Source of the DNA: Chrysochromulina tobinii
Lineage: Eukaryota > Haptophyta > Prymnesiales > Chrysochromulinaceae
Assembly: GCA_001275005.1 (NCBI GenBank)
Contig: JWZX01003105.1
Coordinates: 1 to 38,015, forward strand
Length of the DNA stretch: 38,015 nucleotides
Direction: 5' to 3'
In this document: piece after piece, positions 16,297-34,480 of the stretch
Layout: each line of letters begins with the position of its first letter
Position numbering within the stretch: position 1 is the stretch's first letter
Position numbers and translations under genes: made by a program
The notes under the pieces: generated by a model
What the model saw: only the letters and a program-made list of their open reading frames with translations
Told to the model about the DNA's origin: nothing
Database searches by the model: none

Positions 16297-16444
16297 TTGT
16301 ACAGGCTACTGTGTTTGTGAAACGGTAGCGAGTGGGGACCGCGGCGCGAGCGCCGCGCTGACGCCCGGGTACGGTACGGCGATGACAACGTGATTTGCTG
16401 ATTTCTGATTTGCGCGTGCTCTCGAAGGCGCGACGTTGCGAAGA

Positions 16445-19400
16445 ATGGCGACACACTTGCCTCCTCCGCCCTCTGGCTTCCTCAGCTTCGACGACGAGGA
16501 GGACTTCGACCCGCTCGAGTCGTACGACCCAGATCCAGAAAATGAACCCGCAATGCCGGCCGCCAGCGGCCCCGACGTTGCCGCCGACGCCGCCGCGCTG
16601 CTGAAGAAGGCGACGCACAGCAACGGCATGCTGTCCACGTACGACGATGACAAAACGTACAAGGATCGTGTGCACAGGGCGCGCGTCGCCGGCGACTTCC
16701 AGTATCTGCGCAAGCGCGCCGAGGACGCCAGTGAGGCGGCCTCTGTCGCGCAGCGCAACGAGCGCACACAAGGCGAGCGGTATGAAGAGTTGCGCAATCG
16801 CTCGGCCGAGGCGGAGGCGGAGGTGGAGCGGCTGACGGATTTGGGCAAAACGCAGCCCAACATAGGCGCGCAGCAGGCCGCGCACAGTCGCCTCGCCGAC
16901 GCGCTCGGCGCCGAGCGTGCGCAGGCCGAGACGATGAGCCGCGCGGTGGCGGCGGCGCGTGCGGCCGAGGTGGAGCGCGACGCAGTGCTGCTGGAGCTCA
17001 CGCACAAGCGACGCGAACACGAGGGGCTCGAGCACACGACGCACGCGGAGGAGTCCATGCAGCAACTCGCCGCGCCCGGGCGCGCCGCACGCGAGCGCGC
17101 CGCGGCCGAGCGCATAGTCAAAGGCTCGCGCGACGCAGAGGAGCGCGCCAAGGCCGCGGAGCATGTCCGCCAGCAGCAGGCGCGCTCGCAGCTCGAGCAG
17201 GCGCGCGCGGGGCACAAGCGCGCGGTGCTCTCGCTGCGAGAGCGCGTCGCCAAGGAGCGCGAGGGTGCTGACGAAATCGCCGAGGGCTACCGCCAGCGCA
17301 ACGACGAGCGCGCGGTGGCTGTCATGGAGCTCAAAGAATCGACCGCGGCCATCTCGGCTCAGATGCGCGCGGCGAATGCGAAGCGCGCGGAGCGGCAGGC
17401 GGAGGTGGAGCGGTCGCGCCAGGCCGAGAAGGCCGCGATCCTCGCCGCGGGCGGCAACCCGTACATGGTCTTCCGCCAGCGAGAGGAGGAGGCACGGCTG
17501 GCGCGCGAGCGAGCGAAGATGGAGAGGCAGCTCGACGCCAACATGACCGAATTGCAGGGGACCATCTTGCAGGGGTACAAGGAGGAGGCGGAGAAGCGCG
17601 ACAAGGCGAAGACCTCCAGGGAAATGATCGAGGCCAAGGCCAAGGCCATCTCGTCCAACGGCAAGGCGCAGTCCAACACCAAGTTCATGTTCGAGAACAC
17701 GAAGGCCAAGGTGTCTGTGATCGACCCGACCTCCAAACTGGACCACATCAACCCGTCGCAGCACATGACAGTCAAGAGTCGGCCCGACTGGAAGATGGGG
17801 CTCACGACTGCCGAGGCGGGCGTCGACAACCTCGGCATGGGCTCCGGCAACACAAAGTACGGTGGCAAGATCGTGGTCGATCCTGACGTGGTGGACTACT
17901 ATGCGGAGAAGTATCCGGAGGTGACCGCCGAGATGATGGCCAAGGCGGAGGTCAAGGTCGCCAAGGCGCGCGCGGCGGGCGTGCCACCGGGCGGCCACAA
18001 GACGGCGATCGCCCTGCCCGAGCCCACGGCCGCCACGGTGCGGCTCATGGCCGCCGAGGCGAGCGCGCGCCACGAGGCGGTCGATGAGCTACTCGAGCCC
18101 GAGGCGGAGGGCCTCTGGGAAAGTGCGGTGGACGGCGTCGAAGGGCCCCTTCGGCCCTCCAAGGGCGCCAAGGAGAATGCTTTCGGGCTGCGCGAGCTGT
18201 CCACCCTCGAGAAGCGCTACATGGCCGAGGCGCAGGCGCGCCAGAAGCCCAACCAGATCATCCCACAGGTAGTTGGCGGCAAGACGTGGTCGGGTCCCGC
18301 GTTCATCTGCAAGCCGAACGTGATCCTCTTTGCGGACTTTGATGTGGGCAAGACGTACGAAATCAAGTTCACGCTCACAAATGTCTCGTACACGTTCAAC
18401 GCCTTCCGGCCGGCGGCGCTGCCCGACGCGGTCGCCTCCTTTTTCGAGCTCTCGCACGTACCGCCGGGGCGCATGTCCGCGGGCGTCACGGCGGACCTGT
18501 TCATCAAGTTCTCGCCCAAGATCAACCAGGACATTGAGAGCGAGATCACCTTCAACACCGCGACCGGCCCGATGACGGTGCCTCTCAAGGCGACGACCAA
18601 GAAGGCCAAGATCGCACTCGCCACGCCCACGATCGACTTTGGCGCGGTGGTGATGGGGGAGACGCGCCGGCTGCCCCTCACCTTTGTCAACGGTGGCGCC
18701 CTCGACTGCCCCCTCACGATCTCGACGCTGCATGCGACGATGCCGACGGACCCGCCGGCCGACGGCGAAGCGATCGGCGGCGAGGAGCCGGCGCCGCTAC
18801 CTCCGCTCTTCACCTTCGATGCCGGCGTCGAGCAAACCGTCGTCAAGGGGTACGACACGACGACGATCATGCTCACCTTTGCGCCTCGCCAGCCGGGCGA
18901 CGCAGCGACGCTCTTCAAGCTCGGCTATGGGCCCGCGCAGCCGGACGACGAGATCTCGGTGCACGGGCTCGGTGTGGCCGTACCCATTTACGTCGAGCGC
19001 GACACGATCGACCTGCTCACCTGCTGCTACGACGGGCTGTACCGCGAGTCGGTCGTGCTGCACAACCGCTCCAAGACTGCGCTCAAGGTGAACGTGCTCG
19101 TGCCCCGTCCGCTCAAGGGGTACCTCGAGTTCGTGCCCTCGACGGGCTTTGTGCAGGCGCGCTCGCCCTTCGCCGTGAGCCTCAAGCTGCGTGCGAACCC
19201 GGACATTTTGAAGACGTGCGAGCAGTACATCACGGACGAGGTACTCTCGATCCCGATCAGTGTGAGCGTGCCCGAACAAGTGCTGCCGGTCTCCTTTATG
19301 CTGCGCGCACAGCTGACCGACCCTACGCTCCGCTTCGAGCGCGATGGGCTCGAGGTGAGCACGCTCCACTTTGGCTCGTGCCCGCTCAACGCGAGCCGCA

Positions 19401-21514
19401 TCCTCGAGCTCTCGATCCGCAACGTGTCGGCGCTGCCGCAGCGCTTCGGCTTCTTGCCGTTGCCCAAGGAGCTCGATGTGCAGCCTGGGGACGCGATCGG
19501 CACGATCTTACCGGGCGAGACGCTCGTGCGGCGCGTGCTCTTCTCGCCCACGGCGGAGATCACTCACAAGATCACACTCACGTGCCGCACGTCGCTCAAC
19601 CGCACGTACCACCTCAAGTGCGTGGGCACGGGCATCCAGCCGATTCTGACGCTCTCGAGTGTGAAGCTCTCGCTCCCGCCGACCGTCGAAGGGGACACCT
19701 CGTTTGGCGACGTGACCCTCACCAACAGCTCGAAGCACGAGGCGCGCACCTTCGAGTTCGCGCCGCCGGTGGGCTCATGCCTCAAGCTAGCGCCCAAGGT
19801 GGGTACCCTGCCGCCGGGGGAGTCTGTGCGGGTGCGCATCGAGTTCACCGCTCCGGTCAACCCCGACACGAGCTACGCGCCGCACGGACGCAGCGGCGCA
19901 GGCGTGCCCGTCGTTACGGAGGGCGAGGAAGGCGGCGAGGAAGGCGCCGTGGCGGGCGCCGTGGCGGCGCCGGAGCCGTCGCCACCCTCAGCGGGCGGCG
20001 ACGAGGGCGCCGGCGGCGACGAGGGCCCGCCCGACACGGCGCCAGTCGAGTTGCTGCCAGGTGCTGTGCCGAGTGTCGCTGACGAGCCGTGGACCCTGCT
20101 GGCGCGCCCGACGGTGCTGTGCTTCGTGCGTGCTGAGGGGCAGCCACTGGATCACGCGGCGACCCTCTTCTTGGGCGTCGAGACGCCGGTGGTGGCGGTG
20201 CCGATGGTGCTTGCAAGCTCGGGCGGGGTCACGTCGGAGGTGGCGTTCGGCTCGGTGCCCGTCGGCCAGTCGCGCATGGTCTCGATTGCGATCATCTCGC
20301 GCGAGGACGTGGCGCTGCAGCTCACGGCTGACCCTTTGGAGGAGCTCGGTCCTTTTTCGCTCATCAACGCGCTGCCGCTGCTGCCGCCGCGCGGCGCCGT
20401 CGAGGTGCCGCTGCGCTATCTCCCCATGAAGCAGCTGCCAGGGCGCGAGACCCTCAAATTGCGAGCGGGCGGCTGCACCTTGTCGGTGGCGCTGAGTGGT
20501 CAGGGCGTCTCGCCCACACTACGGCTGCTCGGCCCTCAACCCGACCCACCGCCCGCGGGCGGCGCGCCCATCCCCGGTGTCTCCACACCCCAGATCGATC
20601 CGGAGACGGGGGAGCCGTCCAAGGTGAAGCTGGGGGGCGAGGCGAGGCGCTCGTACCGGAGCGACTCGTGCGTGCTCGTGCATTGCGGCGACGTGCTCGT
20701 GGGCTCCGAGGCGTCGAAGACGGTGACCATCGAGAACAAGTCTGCCTTTGCGGTGGGGTACGCGCTGAAGCTCCTCCAGGCGGGCCACACCAACAACGGG
20801 GCCGCACCCGTCTTTGATGTGTCGCCCACCGAGGCCGAGATTGCGGGTGGCGCCACGCTGACGCTCACGGTGCGCTTCGCGCCCGACCTTGCGTCGGATA
20901 GCTTCTGGCAGCTGCTTGAGGTGTCGGTGCCTAATCAGGAGAGCTCGCCGCATCTGCTCATGCTGCGCGGGCGGTCGTACGAGTCCGCGGGCTACGTGCT
21001 GGCGCCGGAGCAGCACTCGCAGGTTGGCCCCTCGCTGCTGCTCGCGAAGGCTCGCGACACCATCTGCCTGCCGACGCCCGCTCTCACTGGGATACCCGCC
21101 GCTGCGCCCACCGACAAACGCATCATTGAGGTGCTTCTCGTGCCGAGCGGCGCGGCGGGCGCTGCCACGGCCACGCTGCTCATCGGCAACTGCAAGGCCC
21201 TCGTGCCAGACCCGAAGGCGGCGGGGCTCGAATTCTCCTTTGAGGGGCTGGACGATGCTGCGAGTCGGCGCGGGTTTGGGGTAGAGCCTCTCAAGGGAGT
21301 GGTGAAGGAGGGGGAGCAACAGGCGATCAAGCTGAGCTTCACACTCAAGGAGGAGGCGCTCGCGGGCACCGAGCTCGGCGTGATCGCCTCGTTTGGCGTG
21401 CCGCAGTGGGCGGAGGTGAGTCTCAAGTGCGTGCTCAAGGGCGGCACCCCGCCGCCCGCGCAGCCGGAGACGATCGTGCTGCTCAAGGGGTACATTGCCG
21501 GGCGCTCCCATTAA
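16445..21514 (+). CDS. CFAP74: CFAP74-like axonemal central-pair protein
   Basis: 1,689 aa in one exon, ATG at 16445. N-terminal acidic segment (FDDEEDFDPLESYDPDPENE), then a long charged coiled coil (about residues 75-420, many RA/KAE repeats). From about 600 a series of ASH/MSP-type immunoglobulin-like domains begins: FICKPNVILFADFDVGKTYE, then LTNVSYTFNAFRP, then PPGRMSAGVTADLFIKFSP; later units include IDFGAVVMGETRRLPLTFVN, FGDVTLTNSS, VAFGSVPVGQSRMVSIAI and VLVGSEASKTVTIENKS. Coiled coil followed by ASH arrays and overall size fit CFAP74, a C1d central-pair component controlling ciliary beating. HYDIN or CFAP47-type proteins share ASH domains but are larger. A Gly/Glu/Ala-rich spacer at about 19915-20050 interrupts the array. 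Confidence 0.75.
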   Translation: MATHLPPPPSGFLSFDDEEDFDPLESYDPDPENEPAMPAASGPDVAADAAALLKKATHSNGMLSTYDDDKTYKDRVHRARVAGDFQYLRKRAEDASEAASVAQRNERTQGERYEELRNRSAEAEAEVERLTDLGKTQPNIGAQQAAHSRLADALGAERAQAETMSRAVAAARAAEVERDAVLLELTHKRREHEGLEHTTHAEESMQQLAAPGRAARERAAAERIVKGSRDAEERAKAAEHVRQQQARSQLEQARAGHKRAVLSLRERVAKEREGADEIAEGYRQRNDERAVAVMELKESTAAISAQMRAANAKRAERQAEVERSRQAEKAAILAAGGNPYMVFRQREEEARLARERAKMERQLDANMTELQGTILQGYKEEAEKRDKAKTSREMIEAKAKAISSNGKAQSNTKFMFENTKAKVSVIDPTSKLDHINPSQHMTVKSRPDWKMGLTTAEAGVDNLGMGSGNTKYGGKIVVDPDVVDYYAEKYPEVTAEMMAKAEVKVAKARAAGVPPGGHKTAIALPEPTAATVRLMAAEASARHEAVDELLEPEAEGLWESAVDGVEGPLRPSKGAKENAFGLRELSTLEKRYMAEAQARQKPNQIIPQVVGGKTWSGPAFICKPNVILFADFDVGKTYEIKFTLTNVSYTFNAFRPAALPDAVASFFELSHVPPGRMSAGVTADLFIKFSPKINQDIESEITFNTATGPMTVPLKATTKKAKIALATPTIDFGAVVMGETRRLPLTFVNGGALDCPLTISTLHATMPTDPPADGEAIGGEEPAPLPPLFTFDAGVEQTVVKGYDTTTIMLTFAPRQPGDAATLFKLGYGPAQPDDEISVHGLGVAVPIYVERDTIDLLTCCYDGLYRESVVLHNRSKTALKVNVLVPRPLKGYLEFVPSTGFVQARSPFAVSLKLRANPDILKTCEQYITDEVLSIPISVSVPEQVLPVSFMLRAQLTDPTLRFERDGLEVSTLHFGSCPLNASRILELSIRNVSALPQRFGFLPLPKELDVQPGDAIGTILPGETLVRRVLFSPTAEITHKITLTCRTSLNRTYHLKCVGTGIQPILTLSSVKLSLPPTVEGDTSFGDVTLTNSSKHEARTFEFAPPVGSCLKLAPKVGTLPPGESVRVRIEFTAPVNPDTSYAPHGRSGAGVPVVTEGEEGGEEGAVAGAVAAPEPSPPSAGGDEGAGGDEGPPDTAPVELLPGAVPSVADEPWTLLARPTVLCFVRAEGQPLDHAATLFLGVETPVVAVPMVLASSGGVTSEVAFGSVPVGQSRMVSIAIISREDVALQLTADPLEELGPFSLINALPLLPPRGAVEVPLRYLPMKQLPGRETLKLRAGGCTLSVALSGQGVSPTLRLLGPQPDPPPAGGAPIPGVSTPQIDPETGEPSKVKLGGEARRSYRSDSCVLVHCGDVLVGSEASKTVTIENKSAFAVGYALKLLQAGHTNNGAAPVFDVSPTEAEIAGGATLTLTVRFAPDLASDSFWQLLEVSVPNQESSPHLLMLRGRSYESAGYVLAPEQHSQVGPSLLLAKARDTICLPTPALTGIPAAAPTDKRIIEVLLVPSGAAGAATATLLIGNCKALVPDPKAAGLEFSFEGLDDAASRRGFGVEPLKGVVKEGEQQAIKLSFTLKEEALAGTELGVIASFGVPQWAEVSLKCVLKGGTPPPAQPETIVLLKGYIAGRSH

Positions 21515-23848: not shown

Positions 23849-23855
23849 CTAGAGC
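23806..23855. repeat. 28-bp tandem repeat spanning the RND gene stop codon
   Basis: The 22-nt core GCACGGGCACGGCCCCTAGAGC occurs at 23806..23827 and again at 23834..23855 with a CATGCAT spacer. The second copy contains the stop codon of the minus-strand RND gene (23849-23851), so a stop-like CTA is duplicated just downstream. Confidence 0.8.
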
Positions 23856-26800
23856 AGCTCGTCGTCCACGTCTTCCTTGCCGTTGCGCGAGGGTGGCGGC
23901 AAGCGCGAGGGTGGCGGCAAGCCGCGATCTGGCGCGTGGCGCGGCGGCATGGCGCCCATGGCCGAATCTGAGTGGTAGCGCGGCCCGTATCGCTCCGGGC
24001 CGAGGCCGCCGCCTGACTCGACGAGCTGGACCGACCAGCCATCGCCCTCCGAGTGCGGCGCGGTGATGGCGGGTGGGGCCTCCTCTGGCTCCTCGTTCGG
24101 TTGGGCTGTGTGATAGCCGCGTGTCGCCTTCGGGCCGACGAGCATGAGGACGACCAAGAAAGCGAGCGAGAAGCACGCGGAGACGATGGTGACCAGAAAA
24201 AAGATCTGGCCAAACTCGCGGAGGAGCAGCAGCTGTGCGGCGAGCACGGGCGAGACGGCGAGCAGCGTCGTCGCGGCGGACGAAACGATCGACGAGGCCC
24301 GGGCGAAGACAGTCGCGCGGCTCTTATAGAAGCGATCGGCAAAGAGTGAGTTCTTGTATGCGTGTGCGAGGTGGATGATGTAGTCGACCGACATGCCTAC
24401 GACCAATGAGAGGGCGAGGGCGGAGGTGACTCCAAGGGGGATCGCGAGCAACTTCATCACGCCGAGGAGCGTCACCACCATCGCGATCAGGCAGTAGAGC
24501 GCCACGTAGCTGATGATGAGCGAGCGCGAGAAGAGGGCGATCGCCGCCATCGACACGAAGGGCGTCACTGTGAGCGCGGTGGACACCGACGAGAAGAACG
24601 CCATCTCTGTAGCGAGCACACTCCACTTGGCGCACGTGTGCACGCCGTACTGCAGCGGGCTCGACGCCTCGGAGACCAGAGAGGGCACGTCAGCGCCGCC
24701 AGCGAGTCCGAGCCTCCACAGTGGCTCCACGATCATCACGCTCGCATTCTGTGCCGCGCTCGCATTCTGTCCACAGTCGTCGCCGTAGCACACGACGTCC
24801 CGGTCGAAGGGCTCGCGCACGGCCCGTGGCGCGTGCTCAAGAAAGGCATCCCATTCGCCCTTGAAGTTGCGGAGCAGGGGTGGATCGGCCACCAGACCGA
24901 TGGCGCCCTGCCCGCCTGTGGGGAACTTGCTCGGCAGGTCGCCGATCCTGATCCAGATCACCTTGCCGTGGTCTTGACAATCGTGCTCGCTCGGCGGGCA
25001 GATCTTGAGCCCCACGTCAGCCACTAGCCACCACTTGCGCCCGAGGAGCTCGCGCACCGTCTCGTCGAACAGGCGGGGCTCGATGGGGAAGGGTTGGCCC
25101 TGCGCCACCCGGTCGTCATGCAGCTCCTTCATGAAGCACTGGACCTCCTCCGGCGCGTGGTCGGGATGCAGCGGGGAGCGCGCGCCGTGCAGCAGCTCAC
25201 AGAACGCCAGGAGCTCGAGCTGCGTGCTCGTGGCGCTCGCGTCGAAGCCCTCGATAAGCTCGGGCGCGTTCTTGCTCCATGCGACATTTTTCCCGATTTC
25301 GCCGCCGCACATCTCCTCTTTGCAACCGCTCGTGCCAAAGTAGAGGCGGCAGCGCTCGGCCTCGGGTAGGCTCGTCCTCGATGGCATGGGGCCGCTCAGC
25401 AGGGGCGTGTTGTTGAGATCAATGACGGAGCCTGAGAGAGTCCAGAGAGAGCTGCCGAGGGTCATGCACACGATCGCGGTCATGAGGAGCGCACACGCCG
25501 AGGGGATGCGAGCAGTCGCGTGCGGCGCGTCCTCGGTCGAGAAGCCGCAGAAGTTCACGCCAGTGTACCATGCTTCCATGGCACCGAAAATGGGGACCAC
25601 ATTGATGAAGGAGAAGAGGGCGAGCGTGACCACGAGCATGTATTGCACCGGCCAGAACGCGTGGTACTCCATGGTGATGTGGCCACCACTCGCCAGCGAC
25701 ATCATGAAGCACGCGCCCATGAGGCTCGCACACAGCGCGCACACGCCGAACGAGACGCGCCGGAGCACGCGCCGATCGTGCCCAAAGGCCTGGGCGAGGA
25801 CGCCGCCACTGTACAGTCCGTGGGTGAGCGGCGTGGCCGCACTCAGGACGCCGAAGAGCAAGATGCCTAATGTCTCCCACCAGAACCAGCCGTCCAAGAG
25901 CGGCAGCAGCAGCGCCATCCCCAAGCAGACGCCGCCCGCCATGCGCAGACGGCGAGGCGCGTCGTCGGCGCGCGGCGAGGGCGCGAAGAGGGCGATGGCG
26001 AGGCCGCGCTTGAACAGGTACCCGAGGAAGCCAAGCAGCACACCATGCAGCGCTAGGGTCAGCTCCAGCAGCATGGGCAGCGCGCGGATCGAACCGAACA
26101 GTGCATTGGAGAGCGTCGTGTTGAACGTGATCACCAAGGAGAAGAGCACGCCATGCTGCACGACGGCGGCCGCGATCGCGAGCCTCTCGCCCAAGTCGTA
26201 CAGCTCCTCCTCTGTCGCGCCGGGCAGAGGGCGAGCGCCCCAACGAGAGGCGGCCGTCTCGCCGCTCATTTGAAGGTCGGCGGCGTTGAGCAGCCAAATC
26301 GCATCCGCGGAGAGGAGCGCGGCCAGCAGCAGGCCGTGCCAATTGGCAGCATCAAAGGAGGGCCAGAGGCCCTCCGGCCATCCGGGCAGCGCGTCCTGCG
26401 TGATGAAGATCCACAGCGTGGTGACGAAGCAGAAGAGGGCCCCAAAGAGGGCGAGCTGCGAGGGGATCGGCGAGCGCTTCGACGCCTCGGTGGGGTGGAG
26501 CATGTGCACTGGCCGGCCCGTGCGGAAGACATTGGAGAGGGCAAGCAGCGGCGGCACGTGCCCGAGTAGCGAGAAGGCGAGCAAGTTGGACGCAATGATG
26601 GCACGCGGGCCGAAGGCGGCGTTGAAGGCCTCTGGAATGAGCGCCAGGATCAACACGATCGTGCCCGCGATTAGAAAGCCCGCCGCCATCGTTTGCAGCC
26701 GGCGCAGCAGCTTGCCACGGCGCTCCGGCTCGCGCTGGATGTACGCAGGCGGCGCGAAAAAGCCCAGCGGCTCGCCGAAGAGGATGACGCGCGCGCCAAC

Positions 26801-29800
26801 AGCTGAGAGCGCCCCGTCGAGTAGCCAGAGAGCCGCGAGGCAGCCGCCGACGAAGATGGGCCAGCCCGAGCCGCTCTTGAGCCCATCAATCCAGCCGGGC
26901 AGGAGCCGGCAGTGCGCGAGCTCGTCGAGAGTCAGATGATGGTCCCCATCATTGCCGTCGCAGACCACCGGGTTGTTGGCCTTGAACCAGGCGACGAGCG
27001 CGGAGACGCCGAAGAAAAGCACCATCAGCCCATGCCCGAGGAGCGACGCGTCGCGGGCCCGCTCCGAGAACTCGGTCGGTACGAAGAAGGAGCTCTCACG
27101 ATTCTTGAGCGCCACCTGCGCGATCGAAGCGTGTGCGGCGGCGTTGGCCAGGCACCAGAGCACCACCAGGTTAGCGAGGCCTGGCGGGAGCGTGCGCGCG
27201 ATGGGCAGCCCCGAGAGGAAGATCATGAACCATCCCGCGTGCGAGTGGACGGAGGAGGCGATCAAGAACTGCGCCTTGTACTCGGGCCGCGAACGAAAGT
27301 GCCACACGGGCTCACCAAAAAAGGCAGCTTGTGCCGCGAGCGAGAGCATCGCCGCATCATAGAGCCAGACGATGCCGAGGAAGAGAGAAATCCCGCCTGG
27401 TCCCGACCAAGTCCAATGTAACGGCCAGCCGCCGCCTTGCAGGTCGCCGTTGACAATCGAGAAGATGATGATGCCAAAGATGCCGCTCGCGGCCGAGGCG
27501 GCCACATACGCGCCCGTGGCCGCCGAAGGCTGCTCCCGCATCCACTCGGTGACGCTGACCACCCACCACTGGGTCTGGTAGTGAGCGACCGCGGCCACGC
27601 GCCCGAAGAAGACTGAATGGAGAAGGAGCAGCAGCCCGAGGAGGTTGCCGAGCGGCGAGGCGGCCTCGCGCGCAAAGTCACACAAGAAGAGGGCGAGGTA
27701 CATGAGCGCGAACCCAAGGGTGGCCATGAAGGAGGCGACGACGCCCACGCCAGTGACGAAGGCCGCGGGCGTCTCACCATGCGCTGGCGACTGGAAGAAG
27801 CCTACTGTTCGGTCCGTGTACAGCGCAAACGTGAGGCCTCCCAAGAGGACAGCATCGTACACGCAGAGCACCGAGAGCGTCGCACCAACCCACGCGGGGC
27901 CGCTCTCGTAGTCCGGAATGTGCTGGCCGGTCGCCAGCAGGTGCGCGTACCTGTGAGTGGATCAATCAGAGGTCATCAGAGGCCGTCAGAGGTCATCCGA
28001 GGACGTCAGAGGTCATCCGAGGTCATCAGAGGTCATCCGAGGTTATCAGCGTACCGCGCAGGCAGGTTGGACGCCGCGGCCTCGGGCGCGGTCAGAGAGG
28101 TGATCCGTGTAGTGTTGAGGCCTTCGACGGATCGAAAGAGATGGCTGGGATTCGAGGGTGGCAGGCGCGCGCGCTCGATGATGCCGGCCATCAGAGGGTC
28201 GGGCGCGAAGGTGAACGAGGCGTCGCTGCCCGGCGAGAGTTTGAGCGCAAACGGCGTGAGGACCACTACGACAGCAGCGAAGCCAGCAAGGATGAGGCCT
28301 TTATTGTCCCACAGATAGCGGTGGACGGCCTGCAGTGCGAGCAGGCGTTCCTTTTGCTTGCGCTGCCGCTCCGCCGGGTTGGGTGGCGGTGCGTATGGAT
28401 TGAGTCGCCCTCGCTCCTCGAGCAAGAGCAGCGCCGGCAGGTACACTCCACACAGCCCAAAGTTGATGAAGATGAGCGTGCCGCCGCACAGCCCGAACTG
28501 GTAGACGGACTTGATCTCGGACAGGCAGTTGATGAAGAGCGAGGCGGCGGTGGTCGCGTTGGCGTAGAATAGGGGTACAGACGCCTGGCGTACTGTCCAT
28601 TCGATCCGCTCCTCTTCTGAGGCGGGCTGGCCGCGACGGTTCATGAGCATGCGGCTCTGCGCCCAAGTCTCGTGAAGGACGAAGATATTGTCGGCGGAGA
28701 CGCCCACGACAACGGCGAGCGAGGCGGCGGCGAAGGCGGAGAGCGTGCTCTCGAAGAAGATCACGCACACCACAAAGTACATGAAGGGGAAGGAAAGCAA
28801 GATCTGCAGTGCGGCCAGCCCCGCGAGACGCCATTGGCCGAAGTAGGCTCGCATGTAGCAGCCCACAAAGACGACGGAGAGGAAGACGAGGAAGAGGTCG
28901 TTATAGAGGAGCACGAGCAGCTCGGCGGTCATCAACTCGAGCGGCCCGCCAAAGTACACATGGACGTACCAGCTCTTCGACCAGGACGACGCGGAGACGT
29001 CGTAGAGCTTCTGAGCGAGAGCGTACCACTTGTCGCCCGTCATGGCGCTTCGTCGGACAGAGAGCGTCGAGCGTAAGTACGATGCGCGGGCGCGCTCGTG
29101 GTTTGCACGCTGCAGGTCCGCACCCTGCCGCTCGTGCGAGGCCGCGTACATCTCATCGGCGTCGAGCAGTTCCGTTGGCGCATCGACCGACAGGAAGCCG
29201 TCGCATGCATTCGACTCAAGCCACTGCACCGTCTTCGCCACGTCGTCCGAGTCAAAGGGCGGCAGCGCGCAGCCACCGTCGTGCTCGACTGCAAGGCGGC
29301 CGTCGAAAAAGAGCTGGGGCAACGTGCGGTTGCGCGAGGCATACGGGTACAGATAGTTGAGCACTGAGTCGATGGGTTTACAACCTTCCGAGGCAGGCCC
29401 ACCGCCTGGCGCCATGTAGCACACCTCTTCCATCTTCATCCACTCCCACAGTTCGCGCTCGAGGTCGTGTACCTCCTTGAGCTGGCGCAGCGCGAGCATA
29501 TTGGACGCGCCCAGCCCGCGCCGCTCGTACACCAGCGTCACGTTCTCGTAATCGCCGTCGTATGCCAGCCGCCGCCCATGTGCCTCGTCCGCCGCCAGCG
29601 AGCTGTCCTCGTCAGCGAGCCGTCGCCCCAGGCCCGGGAAACTGCGCGCGTCGTCGAGCTTGCCGAGCTCGTAGAAGTGGCGCACGTCCACATGCTTTGT
29701 CGCGATGAACATGTTCTCGTTCACCGAGAAGAGGGTGGACGCGGCGAGCACCACCCAAAGCGTTGCGACACCCGCTGCAAAGAAGACGATAAGAAGCACC

Positions 29801-30075
29801 TTAGAGGGCGAGTCAGCGATGAAGGTGGCGACACGGCCGACGCGGAAGTTGGGCGGGAGCTGGATCTTTACGTCATCCTGTAGGTCCTCCTGCAGCACCT
29901 CGGTCGGTACCGCCTGTACCTCATCCTCCTCATTCTCGGCAGGCTGCGTTTGTGAGTACTCATCCACGATGCCCCGCACGCGCTCGAGCTCGGAGTCGTA
30001 CTGCCGCAGCGGCTCGCGGTCCATGTCCCCGGACACCGGATCGTCGGACAGCGGGTTCATGGTCGTCTCCTGCAT
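23849..30075 (-). CDS. RND/Patched-Dispatched-type transporter with inserted five-repeat polytopic module, two exons
   Basis: 2,040 aa: exon 1 is 30075..28055 and exon 2 is 27950..23849. The intron 27951..28054 has donor GTACGC and acceptor CACTCACAG, and the joined codon is Arg 674. First RND half: TM near 93-116, a large non-cytosolic loop (117-375), then a five-helix sterol-sensing-like block with the GxxxD motif in VVVGVSADNIFVLHE, and a further TM near 610. Residues about 690-1510 hold some 20 TMs in five similar four-helix units. A second loop follows, with Cys and N-glycosylation-type sites. The second RND helix block has VVGMSVDYIIHLAHAY (about 24360-24410), also GxxxD, and an Arg/Pro/Gly-rich tail ending DDELL. 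RND proteins of this class use a proton or sodium gradient to move lipids or sterols; substrate here is unknown. The ATG at 30060 is an alternative start. Confidence 0.8.
25442..27890 (-). repeat. Five protein-level repeats of a four-TM unit (inside the RND protein)
   Basis: Approximate unit starts are 27885, 27400, 26866, 26344 and 25882. The first helix of each unit has a (W/Y)(L)xD-like core: VLCVYDAVLLGG; IVWLYDAAMLSLAAQAAFFGEP; ALWLLDGALSAVGARVILFGEP; LLSADAIWLLNAADLQMSGE; ILLFGVLSAATPL. Units 2 and 3 share FGEP, a NL(V/L)-helix and a VPTEFSER / HPTEASKR loop. Unit spacing is about 155-180 residues. Divergence is high, so the repetition is ancient and seen only in protein. Confidence 0.7.
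26921..26959 (-). other. EF-hand-like acidic loop in the RND insert
   Basis: DGNDGDHHLTLDE lies between repeat units 2 and 3. It resembles a calcium-binding EF loop (acidic positions, then LT and Glu) but register and flanking helices are not canonical. Metal binding is possible, not shown. Confidence 0.35.
27951..28054 (-). repeat. Intron made of a 10-bp tandem repeat
   Basis: The 104-nt intron of the RND gene contains eight 10-bp units at 27968..28047 on the plus strand: AGAGGTCATC, AGAGGCCGTC, AGAGGTCATC, CGAGGACGTC, AGAGGTCATC, CGAGGTCATC, AGAGGTCATC, CGAGGTTATC. Only about 24 nt remain for splice signals. The septamer GGTACGC occurs at both splice junctions. Confidence 0.85.
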
Positions 30076-30292
30076 TTCGGCGCTCTACCTCAAAAGCCGC
30101 GCGGCGCCCACACACCCACGCGAGAGAGAGGTCGCGACGAATTTCGACCCGCGAAACAGCGTTACGTTGGAATCTCCCCACAAGGCGATGCCGCCTGTGT
30201 TGAAAACATGGTCGAAGAGCCGGATGCCAGAGTCTGCTCAGAGTCTGCGCGTCTCTACTACGGTGTATTAGTGACGCGGAAATCAAACATTA

Positions 30293-30389: not shown

Positions 30390-31240
30390 TTACGCCAAGA
30401 AGCCAAGGTCGTGCCCATTCTTCTTTGCCAACTTGATCAGATTCGTGCGCAGCGTCCTGTTTGGGTGCGAATCGAGTCACCACACATCCAGTCAGGCGAT
30501 TGAAGCAGAACGGTGGACTGACACGGCGAGGGGTGGTCTGAAGGTCTGTGCGGGTTCCTGCGATGATGTGCGCACCGCGGCGTCTCCTTGACGAACTCCT
30601 CAAAGTCGATCACCTCGTCGCCGCTTGTGTCCGCCCGCTCAAGGATGCCCGACACCTGCTTCTCCTCGAGAAAATCAAAGCCTAGCGCCTTCAGCGCAGC
30701 ACGGAGCTCCTCCTTGTCGACGCCGCCGCTGCCGTCCTTGTCGGCGGCCTCGAACATTTTGCGGATGACCAGCTGGCCAAAGGGCGACTCGCTCGTGTCC
30801 ACGAAGGCCGAGATCACCTTCGAGTGCTGCGCGATCACCTCGCCACGCAGCTTGTTGAGCTCCTCCTCGCCCATCAGCGCCTTGGCACCTTTGACGATGG
30901 GTGCGAAGATGCCGTTGGCGGCGGGCTTCCGCTTCTTCTCAGCGGCGGGCTTCTTCTCAACGGCCGCAGGCTCAACGGCTGGTGCAGCAGGCGCCGGTCC
31001 CCATGAGGACGAATCGGATGGCGAGCCGGCAACTGCAACTGCTGCCGCCGCAGCATCCGCCGTCGAAATGGCAGGCGGGCCCGGGGCCAGCTCAGGCACT
31101 GAGCTCCACGCGAAGCCTTCGGGCGCCGGGAAGGTGCTCATCCTGACGTGAATCACTGGGTTCATGCTGGCGTGAACTGCTGAGCGCGATGGCGCCAGCA
31201 TGGGCGCCCATGCTGTCGAAAGGAGAAAAATGCCGAGCAT
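30390..31240 (-). CDS. Plastid-type two-EF-hand calcium-binding protein, two exons
   Basis: 243 aa: exon 1 is 31240..30576 and exon 2 is 30456..30390. The 119-nt intron has donor GTGCGC and acceptor CCCAAACAG, and the split codon is Arg. The 22-residue end, RTLRTNLIKLAKKNGHDLGF then LA, restores the ending I know for this algal/plant EF-hand family. Start at 31240: MLGIFLLSTAWAPMLAPSRS resembles a signal peptide followed by a basic, Ser/Ala-rich transit-like segment. Then come an Ala/Pro-rich linker, a helical domain with LMGEEELNKLRGEVIAQHSK and VISAF, and paired EF-hands with loops DKDGSGGVDKEE and DTSGDEVIDFEE. A calcium sensor, probably plastid-located, is inferred. A longer reading to 31513 would hide the signal peptide and is unlikely. 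It is divergent from the methyltransferase at 31505. Confidence 0.8.
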
Positions 31241-31504
31241 CACGAAGTGTGGCACCGCGCTATAAGAAGAGAACGAGATTTCGTGCAAGATTCCCCATTT
31301 CTCTTGGAAAAGAGAAGAATAATCTCCTTCGACAGTTGCCAAATCCGAATTTATCTGGTGAACGTGTGTGTCCCGATGCCCCGTTCGAATCTTATTGAAC
31401 TTTTGTGAATTCCGCATTCGCGCAGAGGGTCCTGCACAGGCACATTCTCCTCGGATATCGGCCTGGCCAAATAGCTGGCCCTGTGGACCGCGCACAGAGT
31501 TAAT
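31241..31504. promoter_or_regulatory. Divergent promoter region, EF-hand protein and methyltransferase
   Basis: 264 bp separate the two start codons. The region is AT-richer than its surroundings, with CTATAAGAAGAGAA near 31260 and runs of GAAAAGAGAAGAATAATC near 31305-31325. It must hold both promoters; which words matter cannot be told. Confidence 0.45.
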
Positions 31505-32665
31505 ATGCTCCACATTTTAACTGTCGCGCTGAGCGCTTGGTCCAGTAGTTGCGGTTTCGGCTTTGTGGCTTCGCGTTGGCCAAGCCAAGCAGATCAATAC
31601 CCAGCCGCTACACGAAGGGCCGCTTCTCCGATGATGTACACCTGCCGACTTTGCAAGGCCTCGTACACCGCAGAAACGAATGGGCCGACTGCATGCAGGC
31701 ACCACCCTGGGACGCTTCGCGGCGAGAGCGCGCGCAAGGGCGATTGGGAAGGAACGTCAGGAGCCGAACAGGGCCAAAGTGGCGCGCTCGTCTATACGTG
31801 GACTTGCTGTGGCGCTCCCGCAGAAGCCCCTGGCTGCGTGATCGGATTCCACCAATCATATGATGACGTGTCGCCGCCGCCGCCTCCCGCCCGGGCCTCC
31901 TCCCCCCGCGCCTGTGCAAGCGCCGCGATCACCTCGACGCGCGAGTCGCTGTTGGCAATCGCCCGGGAGAATGACGAGACGTTGCCGCAATCGTACTTCG
32001 CAGAGCTTGACTACGACGCGGGCGGCGTGCCTTGGGACCTTCGAGGACGGCCACAGCCTCCGGTACGCAACGCCTACAATGATGGTGCATTCGGTGCGCC
32101 GGGCACCGCCATTCTCGACTGCGGCTGCGGTGCGGGTGGCAATGCGAACTGGCTCGCCGCACGTGGATACGAAATCACCGCGTTCGACTTGAGCCCTAGT
32201 GCTGTATCCACAGCGCTCGCACGCGCAAGCGAGCCCGAGGTCGCACACGCTATCTCAGAGGCACGCGGCTCGGTCGAGTTCGTCCAGGCGTCTGCCGTCG
32301 ACCTCGCGGCTGCGCAGCGCGTGCAGGCACGTGCGCGCGATCTCGGCGGCTTCGAGATCGCCCTCGATTCGGCGATGCTGCATTGCTTGGATGACGAATC
32401 TCAGAACGCCTTCGTCGAGGGCGTGCGCCCTCTCATGCGAGCCGGCGGTCGCCTCTTCATTGGCTGCTTCTCCGATGCCAACCCTGATCCGTGGTCGAAC
32501 CCGCGGCGCATCTCAGAGAACCGGATGCGTGAGTTGCTCTCCCCAGAGCGAGGCTGGCAGATCCGCAGCCTCGACGAGGCGTGGTATGAGCGCCCAGCCG
32601 AGCGATCCGCCTCGGGTGGCGGTGCATGGACCATGGCCTGGTGGTGCGTCGCTGAGGCTGTGTAG
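31505..32665 (+). CDS. SAM-dependent methyltransferase with N-terminal Cys/His (CHORD-like) module
   Basis: 386 aa, ATG at 31505. N-terminal hydrophobic leader (MLHILTVALSAWSSSCGFGF) with a basic tail (RRAASPMM), suggesting ER or complex-plastid targeting. Residues about 45-118 form a Cys/His module: YTCRLCKASY, ACRHHPGT, then YTWTCCGAPAEAPGCVIGFH, similar in spacing to CHORD-type zinc-binding domains. The C-terminal part is a class I methyltransferase: a substrate-entry segment VPWDLRGRPQPPVRN, motif I ILDCGCGAGGNANWLAARG, an acidic ITAFDLSPSAV, and ALDSAMLHCLDDE followed by AGGRLFIGCFSD. It resembles TehB/thiopurine-type small-molecule methyltransferases; substrate unknown. Zinc module plus methyltransferase in one chain is uncommon. 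Confidence 0.75.
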   Translation: MLHILTVALSAWSSSCGFGFVASRWPSQADQYPAATRRAASPMMYTCRLCKASYTAETNGPTACRHHPGTLRGESARKGDWEGTSGAEQGQSGALVYTWTCCGAPAEAPGCVIGFHQSYDDVSPPPPPARASSPRACASAAITSTRESLLAIARENDETLPQSYFAELDYDAGGVPWDLRGRPQPPVRNAYNDGAFGAPGTAILDCGCGAGGNANWLAARGYEITAFDLSPSAVSTALARASEPEVAHAISEARGSVEFVQASAVDLAAAQRVQARARDLGGFEIALDSAMLHCLDDESQNAFVEGVRPLMRAGGRLFIGCFSDANPDPWSNPRRISENRMRELLSPERGWQIRSLDEAWYERPAERSASGGGAWTMAWWCVAEAV

Positions 32666-32840: not shown

Positions 32841-32866
32841 GTCAAGTCAACTTGTCTTGACTTGAC
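32841..32866. repeat. Perfect 10-bp inverted repeat
   Basis: GTCAAGTCAA-CTTGTC-TTGACTTGAC forms a perfect 10-bp stem with a 6-nt loop, just after a GTACT/GTACTGTACTGTA repeat (32818-32838). It lies between the methyltransferase stop and the FOXRED1-like gene. It could be a 3'-end hairpin or a cruciform; function unknown. Confidence 0.6.
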
Positions 32867-32982
32867 TGCCTGTCCGGTGTTCATTGTCTTCTTTCATACC
32901 GGTAAAAAGACACCGGGGGGAGCCGGGACACACACGGGACATTCATACCGGTAGCAAGCCCGCGTGCGCAAGTCCACAGGAC

Positions 32983-34480
32983 ATGCTCTTGCATGCGGCC
33001 AGGTCCAGCTCGAGTCGATGGCTGCGACGCAGCCGATGCCTTTCAACGCATACTCCGTGCGACACGCTCATCATCGGCGGTGGTGTCATGGGCTCATCCT
33101 TGGCCTACCACCTCGCCGCAGCGCGGGGAACCGGTGAGGGCATCGTGGTGATCGAGAGAGACAGTAGCTACAAGGTCGCGAGTGCGATGCTGTCGGCTGG
33201 CGGCATCCGCCAGCAATTCAGCCTGCGCGAGAACGTTCAGATGAGCATGTATGGCATCGACTTCCTCAAGCGATCCGCCGCGCTGCTCGCCGTCGACGAT
33301 GACGCGGAGCCGGTCGACGTGCAGTTCCAGGAGCGTGGGTATCTCTTCCTGGCCTCTGCGGCGGGTCACGAGACGCTGCGCCGCAACTACGCGACGCAGG
33401 TGGGCGCGGGCGCGCACTGGATCGAGCTCCTCGATCCCGACGAGCTCCGCGCGCGCTTCCCGTGGCTTCGGCTGGACGGCGTGGTCGCTGGCAGCCTTGG
33501 AACTGCCAACGAGGGCTGGTTCGATCCATGGGGACTGTTACGCGGCATGCGGCGCAAGGCGACGGCGCTCGGAGTGACGTACGTCGAGGGCAGGCCAGTG
33601 GGCGCCACGGTCGATGCGGCCACCAAGCGCGTGCTATCTGTCGACGTGGCGTCGACTTCGCGTTCGAGCGGCGGCGACGGCGGCGGCGTCCTTCAGTTTC
33701 GGCCGGCTCGTGCGGTCGCGAACGCCGCCGGCCGCGCACGCCGCCGCGGTGCTGTCGACGCTGGCGGGCGCGCACCGGGCGCTCGATATCCCGGTGCGCC
33801 CGCGTAAGCGCTGCATCTTCCATCTGCGCTGCCCGCCGCCGCCCGATCAAGCGCCATGGCGAGCGCCCGGTACGACGCCCAACCAAGCGCCATGGCGAGC
33901 GCCCGGTACGACGCCTATGTGGCACGCGCCCTTGACTGTCGACCCCAGCGGCGTCTACTTTCGGCCTGAGGGCGCGAGTAGCACGGAGACGTACCTGTGT
34001 GGCGTCTCGCCCGACGCGCCGTACGACGAGGACGTGTGGGACGCCGACGGGCTCGCGGTCAGCGAGTCGGACCACACGCGTCTCTTCGAGGAGACCATTT
34101 GGCCCGTCCTGTACAACCGTGCGGAAGCCTTTGGCGAGATGAAGGTGCTCGGATCCTCCGAGGACGCGGTGCTGATGACTTCCAATGGCTTCCCTCTGAT
34201 GACGTCTGATTGCCTCCCTCATCAGGTGCTCGGGTCCTGGGCGGGCTGGTACGAGTACAACACTTTCGACCAGAACGCGATCATCGGCTGGCACCCCGAC
34301 CTGCCCAACGTGGTGCATCTGAATGGCTTCAGCGGCCACGGGCTGCAGCACGCACCCGCGGCCGGTAGAGCCGTCGCCGAGCTAGTCGAGCACGGCGCCT
34401 TCCGCACGCTCGACCTCTCACTGTTCAGCTTCGATCGGGTGATGGAAGGCAGGCCGGTGCTCGAGACGGGGATCGTTTAA
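32983..34480 (+). CDS. FOXRED1: FOXRED1-like FAD-dependent oxidoreductase with frameshift and probable unannotated intron
   Basis: Mitochondrial DAO-fold flavoprotein family needed for complex I assembly. Start at ATG 32983: the N-terminus LLHAARSSSSRWLRRSRCLS is Arg/Ser-rich, like a mitochondrial presequence. The FAD Rossmann motif is IIGGGVMGSSLAYHLA; then ASAMLSAGGIRQQFSLREN and NEGWFDPWGLL. Near 33735 the frame shifts by one base: the upstream frame reads RAVANAAG, and the family continues in the other frame with HAAAVLSTLAG and PVRPRKRCIF. The rest is in that frame: VDPSGVYFRPEG, WAGWYEYNTFDQNAIIGWHP, NGFSGHGLQHAPAAGRAVAE. An 81-nt segment (34144..34224) interrupts conserved sequence in frame and looks like an intron; a 36-bp duplication lies at 33848-33919. 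Either a recent pseudogene or, more likely, an assembly indel in a GC-rich run. Confidence 0.8.
33848..33919 (+). repeat. 36-bp tandem duplication in the FOXRED1-like gene
   Basis: CAAGCGCCATGGCGAGCGCC begins at 33848 and again at 33884, each followed by CGGTACGACGCC. Two in-frame copies encode QAPWRAPGTTPN. The family has no such insert here, so it is lineage-specific. Confidence 0.8.
34144..34224 (+). other. Probable 81-nt in-frame intron
   Basis: The segment starts GTGCTCGGATCC and ends CCTCATCAG, and the next exon again begins GTGCTCGGGTCC. Removing it joins GEMK directly to VLGSWAGWYEYNTFDQN, matching the family. Its length is 27 codons without a stop, so it is easily mistaken for coding sequence. 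Confidence 0.65.

Follow-up and report, generated by a model that had tools for sequence, protein, structure and literature searches.

A Dispatched-like RND protein of the haptophyte Chrysochromulina tobinii carries a tandem array of membrane hairpins within one outer loop

What is a second membrane domain, about the size of a transporter, doing inside a single loop of an RND protein? RND transporters are usually viewed as a fixed design of 12-13 helices that varies in its soluble loops. The question is raised by a gene on the minus strand of Chrysochromulina tobinii contig JWZX01003105.1, analyzed here as one window of 38,015 nt. Two long minus-strand open frames (28033-30084 and 23849-27961) join over a GT-AG intron (27951-28054) into one protein of 2,040 residues (p, residue number; gene features are on the minus strand), in which two RND halves flank about 20 further helices. 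We find that the core is of a known kind and that the array is, for the libraries and literature searched, a new and unexplained addition.

The insert, of about 820 residues, sits in the second outer loop, after transmembrane helix (TM) 7, and both of its ends hang from that loop. Repeat profiles and an AlphaFold model place it at p690-1512 (25436..27904), within a few residues of where a preliminary description of this DNA had put an insert between the RND halves. It divides into unit 1 (p692-841, 27449..27898, with D706 and H785), unit 2 (p859-999, 26975..27397, D872 and H947), unit 3 (p1038-1193, 26393..26860, D1052 and H1138), unit 4 (p1209-1361, 25889..26347, D1223 and H1309) and a divergent unit 5 (p1377-1512, 25436..25843, H1384 and N1457) that is not recognized from the window protein alone. 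Profiles of the units, built from a six-row alignment, match one another with E-values of 4.9e-8 (units 1-3), 1.3e-7 (1-2), 1.5e-7 (2-3) and 1.6e-6 (3-4), whereas 120 shuffles made within hydropathy classes, so that membrane columns do not mix with non-membrane ones, reach 0.026 at best; the pairings 2-4 (6.7e-4) and 1-4 (0.024) are weak, and no unit matches an RND or loop-2 block better than 0.12. With four of the six pairings of units 1-4 lying between 1.6e-6 and 5e-8, the internal similarity on which the preliminary description depended is found, and the profiles show that the repeats are real.

The repeat can be traced to a smaller element. The halves of a unit, TM1-TM2 and TM3-TM4, match at 3.2e-10 in a gapless alignment of 65 profile columns, with Asp opposite His (best of 200 shuffles 0.0021; reversed control 0.14). 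By this comparison the basic repeat is a two-helix hairpin, ten in tandem, and the four-helix unit a set of two similar hairpins, with the consensus helix - rrGrPlGllrP - helix. A hairpin model made from these two halves marks eight hairpins in the window protein (4e-9 to 1.5e-18, partly self-matches), their starts 70 to 110 residues apart, and gives a mere trace (0.11) beyond them. A second AlphaFold model of the insert has 20 helices of at least 16 residues, and 9 of its 10 hairpin turns contain a bridge residue; its overall arrangement is unreliable (pLDDT 73.0, pTM 0.48).

The fifth unit is the difficult one, since by profile it scores only 0.035 to 0.44 against units 1-4. With a model made of non-last units only (best reversed control 0.086), the last unit is recovered in C (4e-7), P0006 (1e-6), B4 (4.5e-4) and P0007 (1.5e-3); in P0002 and P0003 it reaches 0.04, and in P0004, P0005, P0001 and the window it scores between 0.17 and 1.5, the window at 1.5. 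Stronger scores come from a model that includes last units and are not independent. Because the last units of relatives match the non-last-unit model, we take unit 5 to be a divergent member of the array. The five four-helix units of the preliminary description thus hold by profile for units 1-4, with unit 5 divergent, and are refined to hairpins as the repeat and five or apparently six units per protein. The recurring motifs that it listed are present, but some units lack them (FGEP and PTE.S.R are both found in units 2-3).

Is the fusion of array and transporter itself sound? Exon 1 (28055..30075) runs from an ATG (MQETT; the start codon is a choice, and another ATG lies 5 codons downstream) to the splice site and encodes the N-terminal RND half. 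The GT-AG intron (27951..28054) is 104 bp long and filled by a 10/20-bp tandem repeat, and exon 2 (23849..27950) encodes the hairpin array, loop 2, the C-terminal RND half and the stop codon. The proposed joining of the two exons is borne out by relatives: the junction peptide LPARYAHLL reads LPARYEALL in P0002 and IPARYAALL in P0003, in frames that no intron interrupts at that point. The gene is joined here from genomic sequence alone, and the public model of one paralogous gene (P0012) omits 560 residues of array, so that two genes falsely joined through misassembly or a false intron might be considered. This is extremely improbable, because in five homologues of 2,076-2,450 residues (P0004, P0006, P0007, P0008 and P0010) a single frame encodes the array together with both RND motifs, and three of the five RND loci found in the genome carry the array. 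These comparisons show that the fusion is not an artefact, and the preliminary picture of an RND exporter with a fused, repeat-built second membrane domain is one that the relatives conserve.

By hydropathy, the RND part consists of two six-TM halves, in each of which the first helix (TM1 or TM7) is followed by a large loop. TM1 (p88-112, 29740..29814) is followed by TM2-6 (p387-545, 28441..28917), and exon 1 passes the sterol-sensing domain family PF12349 (29.9 bits, cut-off 22.3) while falling below the cut-off for Patched, PF02460 (19 bits, cut-off 23). TM7 (about p596-615, 28231..28290; hydropathy and conservation) leads into outer loop 2, the remainder of which (p1513-1785, 24617..25435) follows the array, and TM8-12 (p1799-1944, 24140..24577; hydropathy and PDB matches) complete the second half. 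The flanking GxxxD blocks of the preliminary description are found by motif comparison as GVSAD followed by Asn in TM4 (p458-462, 28690..28704) and GMSVD in TM10 (p1859-1863, 24383..24397). Over 13 rows the motif is present in TM4 in 9 and in TM10 in 11; the remaining rows are without the region or begin within it. Dispatched homolog 1 is the top PDB sequence match of the full-length homologue P0004 (1.4e-23), and a profile of the whole family (A5, 11 rows) matches Dispatched in the PDB at 1.6e-46, which makes Dispatched the nearest solved relative. The C-terminal tail carries a motif, HSEGDGWSVQL (p1973-1983, 24023..24055), common to P0002-P0005. An N-terminal-tail motif, VPTE-x-L (p56-61, exon 1), also occurs in P0004, P0006, P0008, P0010, P0012 and B1, and is common to all three gene groups.

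We next asked which residues of the array are retained, counting conservation in the A5 alignment. Asp lies mostly in odd hairpins and His mostly in even ones, buried at matching places. Among the acidic sites, D1052 is kept in 11 of 11 rows, as are D or E at 1223 and D or N at 706, and 872 is variable; among the His sites, H947, H1138 and H1309 are each kept in 11/11 and H785 in 10/11. In unit 5 the pair is H and N in the window's group (7 rows), D and H in P0008 and P0010, H and H in P0013, and a gap and H in P0007. Across nine proteins with 34 units, Asp/Glu/Asn and His both lie within 5 residues of the aligned place in 28 units; three units have neither and three have one (Fisher p 0.006, an indicative value, as the rows are related). 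In 9 of 11 rows the hairpin turns are denser in Lys plus Arg than the linkers, strongly so in P0008 and P0010. For the most part, such a bias agrees with turns in the cytosol and linkers on the outside, the topology to be expected when both ends of an insert lie in an outer loop.

Between units 2 and 3, the linker contains a Cys-bracketed, EF-like loop (p1004-1021, 26909..26962), and both bracketing Cys occur in 7/7 rows of the window's group. In P0002-P0006 the loop fits PROSITE PS00018, the canonical 12-residue EF-hand pattern, which is found anywhere in 7 of 2000 shuffles of P0004; in the window and P0001 the loop has one residue too many for it. Ion sensing, which the acidic loop had suggested at first sight, is plausible in five relatives, and for the copy in the window protein it is doubtful.

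Fusions of this kind form a small family. Searches of 5.8 billion proteins with three queries longer than one unit, two of array and one of the RND part of P0004 (about 8,000 candidates scored each), gave 13 homologues, all 13 with unit matches; the RND query added two further proteins, P0006 and P0007, and both bear the array. The published C. tobinii genome is reported as 59 Mb with 63.4% GC (PMC4580454), and we searched 53 Mb. The RND loci found lie on the window's contig (C1946) and on C1569/C1152, C1127, C1561 and C2253. The array is present at the first three, and no array is seen at C1561 and C2253 (best E 0.12, 139 frames). P0007 gives 15 matches in this genome, all at RND loci, and the insert, in a pattern scan that reaches close relatives only, finds itself alone. 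The C1569 (L006) and C1152 (L007) gene copies are 99.7% identical over 8 kb and represent alleles or a recent duplicate. P0012 is 99% identical to the C. tobinii paralogue, and its gene model jumps residues 846-1405 of that paralogue's 2,438-residue open frame (L006 851-8167, C1569), which is much of the array.

There are five units in groups A and C and apparently six, the first of them weak, in C1127 (group B) and P0007. A strict five-fold ring, which we had considered, is weakened by these proteins; with the unit number at five or apparently six, assembly need not be exactly five-fold. Identities to the window range from 23 to 42% for the array and from 30 to 50% for the RND part. The two sets of identities correlate at 0.99 (36 pairs, 9 proteins, excluding P0013 with its short C-terminal part), and the trees of the two parts agree wherever they are resolved, because of which we infer that the array probably entered before the gene groups parted. 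From another haptophyte, the Emiliania huxleyi expressed sequence tag cluster GS00985 is listed with mouse Patched domain-containing protein 2 as its best match, in a row that comes after ciliary dynein and MORN rows (PMC2784329).

To find known relatives of the array we used sequence families, solved structures and folds. Pfam gives no array family at E 1 for exon 2, and its best scores are 0.024 for 9 unit pieces and 0.015 for 22 units (LysE, one member); the best NCBIfam score for the insert is 0.068 (holin). We take all three as chance. By sequence, the PDB gives at best 1.8 for the insert alone and 1.1 for a unit profile (A8); heme A synthase, which reached 0.014 within the insert with A5, is unrepeated by A8 and was set aside. 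Foldseek with a moderate array model finds nothing significant and no channel-like match; within the limits of that model, the fold check called for in the preliminary description leaves the insert without a convincing known family. Scans that reach close relatives only gave no pattern match of the insert in viral contigs and 8 in GTDB genomes, none confirmed; for the family profile, none of 14 pattern matches in viral contigs was confirmed. Instead of a new domain, the unit could be a distant offshoot of a four-helix membrane family that is already known, such as EXPERA (EBP, sigma-2 receptor), which we regard as quite unlikely. Titles and abstracts of the open-licence literature yielded no description of an RND and array fusion, in keeping with the earlier statement that Patched, Dispatched and NPC1 have no such insert, and the words "patched", "sterol" and "RND" are missing from the main text of the C. 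tobinii genome paper (PMC4580454).

Based on these data, we tentatively propose, at somewhat less than an even chance, that the protein is a Dispatched-like exporter whose ten hairpins form an accessory membrane domain for collecting lipid-linked cargo. The RND core would use a proton or sodium gradient, through the Asp of TM4 and TM10, to drive lipid- or sterol-linked cargo to the outside. Beside the core, the array would lie with hairpin turns cytosolic and linkers outside, and would gather or hold the lipid moiety before handing the cargo on to the outer loops. Pairs of Asp and His would hold hairpins together and could give a pH-dependent step. Secreted proteins with Hedgehog-type Hint domains are candidate cargo: the C. 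tobinii genome has at least 12 such Hint matches above the Pfam cut-off, Hog proteins are reported from the haptophyte Pleurochrysis (PMC2362128), and because Hedgehog is released by Dispatched (PMC8630017), Hint proteins are a fair cargo guess, no more. Loci with Hint matches (L027-L034) lie on contigs C919, C1735, C1698, C662, C914, C1867, C2049 and C2012; 6 of 6 loci read by eye have a Cys-Phe domain start and a T-x-x-H stretch, and in L029 a hydrophobic stretch is seen by eye close to the beginning of the frame.

The proposal draws on the Dispatched match in the PDB, both GxxxD motifs, the repeats, the single-frame fusions, the correlated identities, the conserved Asp/His, the charge bias of the turns and the Hint matches. 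Several points weigh against it. Human DISP1 has conserved Asp572 and Asp573 in TM4 and Asp1051 in TM10 (PMC8630017), and the window protein has Asp-Asn in TM4 and Asp in TM10; with Asn at the second TM4 position, we name the protein Dispatched-like only. Two of the 11 rows (P0003 and P0005) have no charge bias and a slight opposite lean. Since the AlphaFold arrangement is unreliable, the placement of the array beside the core and the Asp-His contact are predictions, as are the function, cargo and ion use of the protein. The co-occurrence of Hint proteins is circumstantial and not linkage. A bolder extension, in which variable-length serial Asp/His hairpins are a new class of membrane domain forming a continuous lipid conduit or proton relay in a Dispatched-like pump, so gathering and exporting a lipid-linked secreted protein (for example, one processed by Hint), is in our judgment doubtful.

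Other roles for the array can be set against cargo collection. If it were mainly a passive scaffold or anchor, keeping the pump within a given membrane region or joining pumps to one another or to partners, then the variable number of units and the faster divergence of the array than of the RND part would be readily accommodated, but the strong conservation of buried Asp and His exceeds what a plain anchor needs, and we consider this role unlikely. Those same residues invite an ion path, a proton or metal-ion relay of alternating Asp and His that energizes or gates the RND core. Polar residues are costly in the membrane yet are kept across all subfamilies, and 28 of the 34 units have the acidic or Asn residue together with a nearby His. 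However, group B and P0007 are without both residues in two middle units and retain the array, RND pumps have coupling residues of their own, and Foldseek gave no channel-like fold. An ion path is slightly less probable still than a scaffold.

Elsewhere in the window, a plus-strand open frame of 1,701 residues (16409-21514) reads by eye as coiled coil plus repeated beta-domain of the flagellar ASH/HYDIN kind. Neighboring frames resemble, again by eye, an EF-hand protein (30437-31516, minus strand), a methyltransferase (31475-32665, plus strand) and an FAD-dependent oxidoreductase (32866-34480, plus strand). A 19-bp stretch of the intron's 10-bp repeat has 155 copies genome-wide (91 forward and 64 reverse, against 0 for the stretch read backwards), frequently in short arrays, and the repeat may mark a family of repeat-filled introns.

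A repeat-built membrane domain has here been added within one loop of a transporter, retained in three gene groups and left changeable in unit number. The array adds a membrane repeat missing from the family libraries searched. In an alga with Hedgehog-type Hint proteins as well, it offers a natural experiment on the delivery of lipid cargo to a Dispatched-type pump. Among known systems, the photosystem antenna chains CP47 and IsiA appear in the fold list only, at 7 to 8 A root-mean-square deviation with no significant Foldseek match, which we read as a common arrangement. The proteolipids (c subunits) of rotary ATPases are hairpins of two helices that bury an acid and turn on the cytosolic side, and duplicated four-helix forms exist. 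The array shares that hairpin by analogy only: no sequence match to c subunits came up, and the array has ten hairpins per chain, the acid in the first helix and His alternating. NPC1 and Patched share the RND fold, the sterol-sensing domain and weaker sequence matches, but are without the array and score lower than Dispatched. Dispatched itself matches in both membrane halves, the sterol-sensing domain, the GxxxD of TM4 and TM10 and the two large outer loops; it has 12 TMs (PMC7362390), whereas the window protein has Asn for the second TM4 Asp and adds about 20 helices in loop 2.

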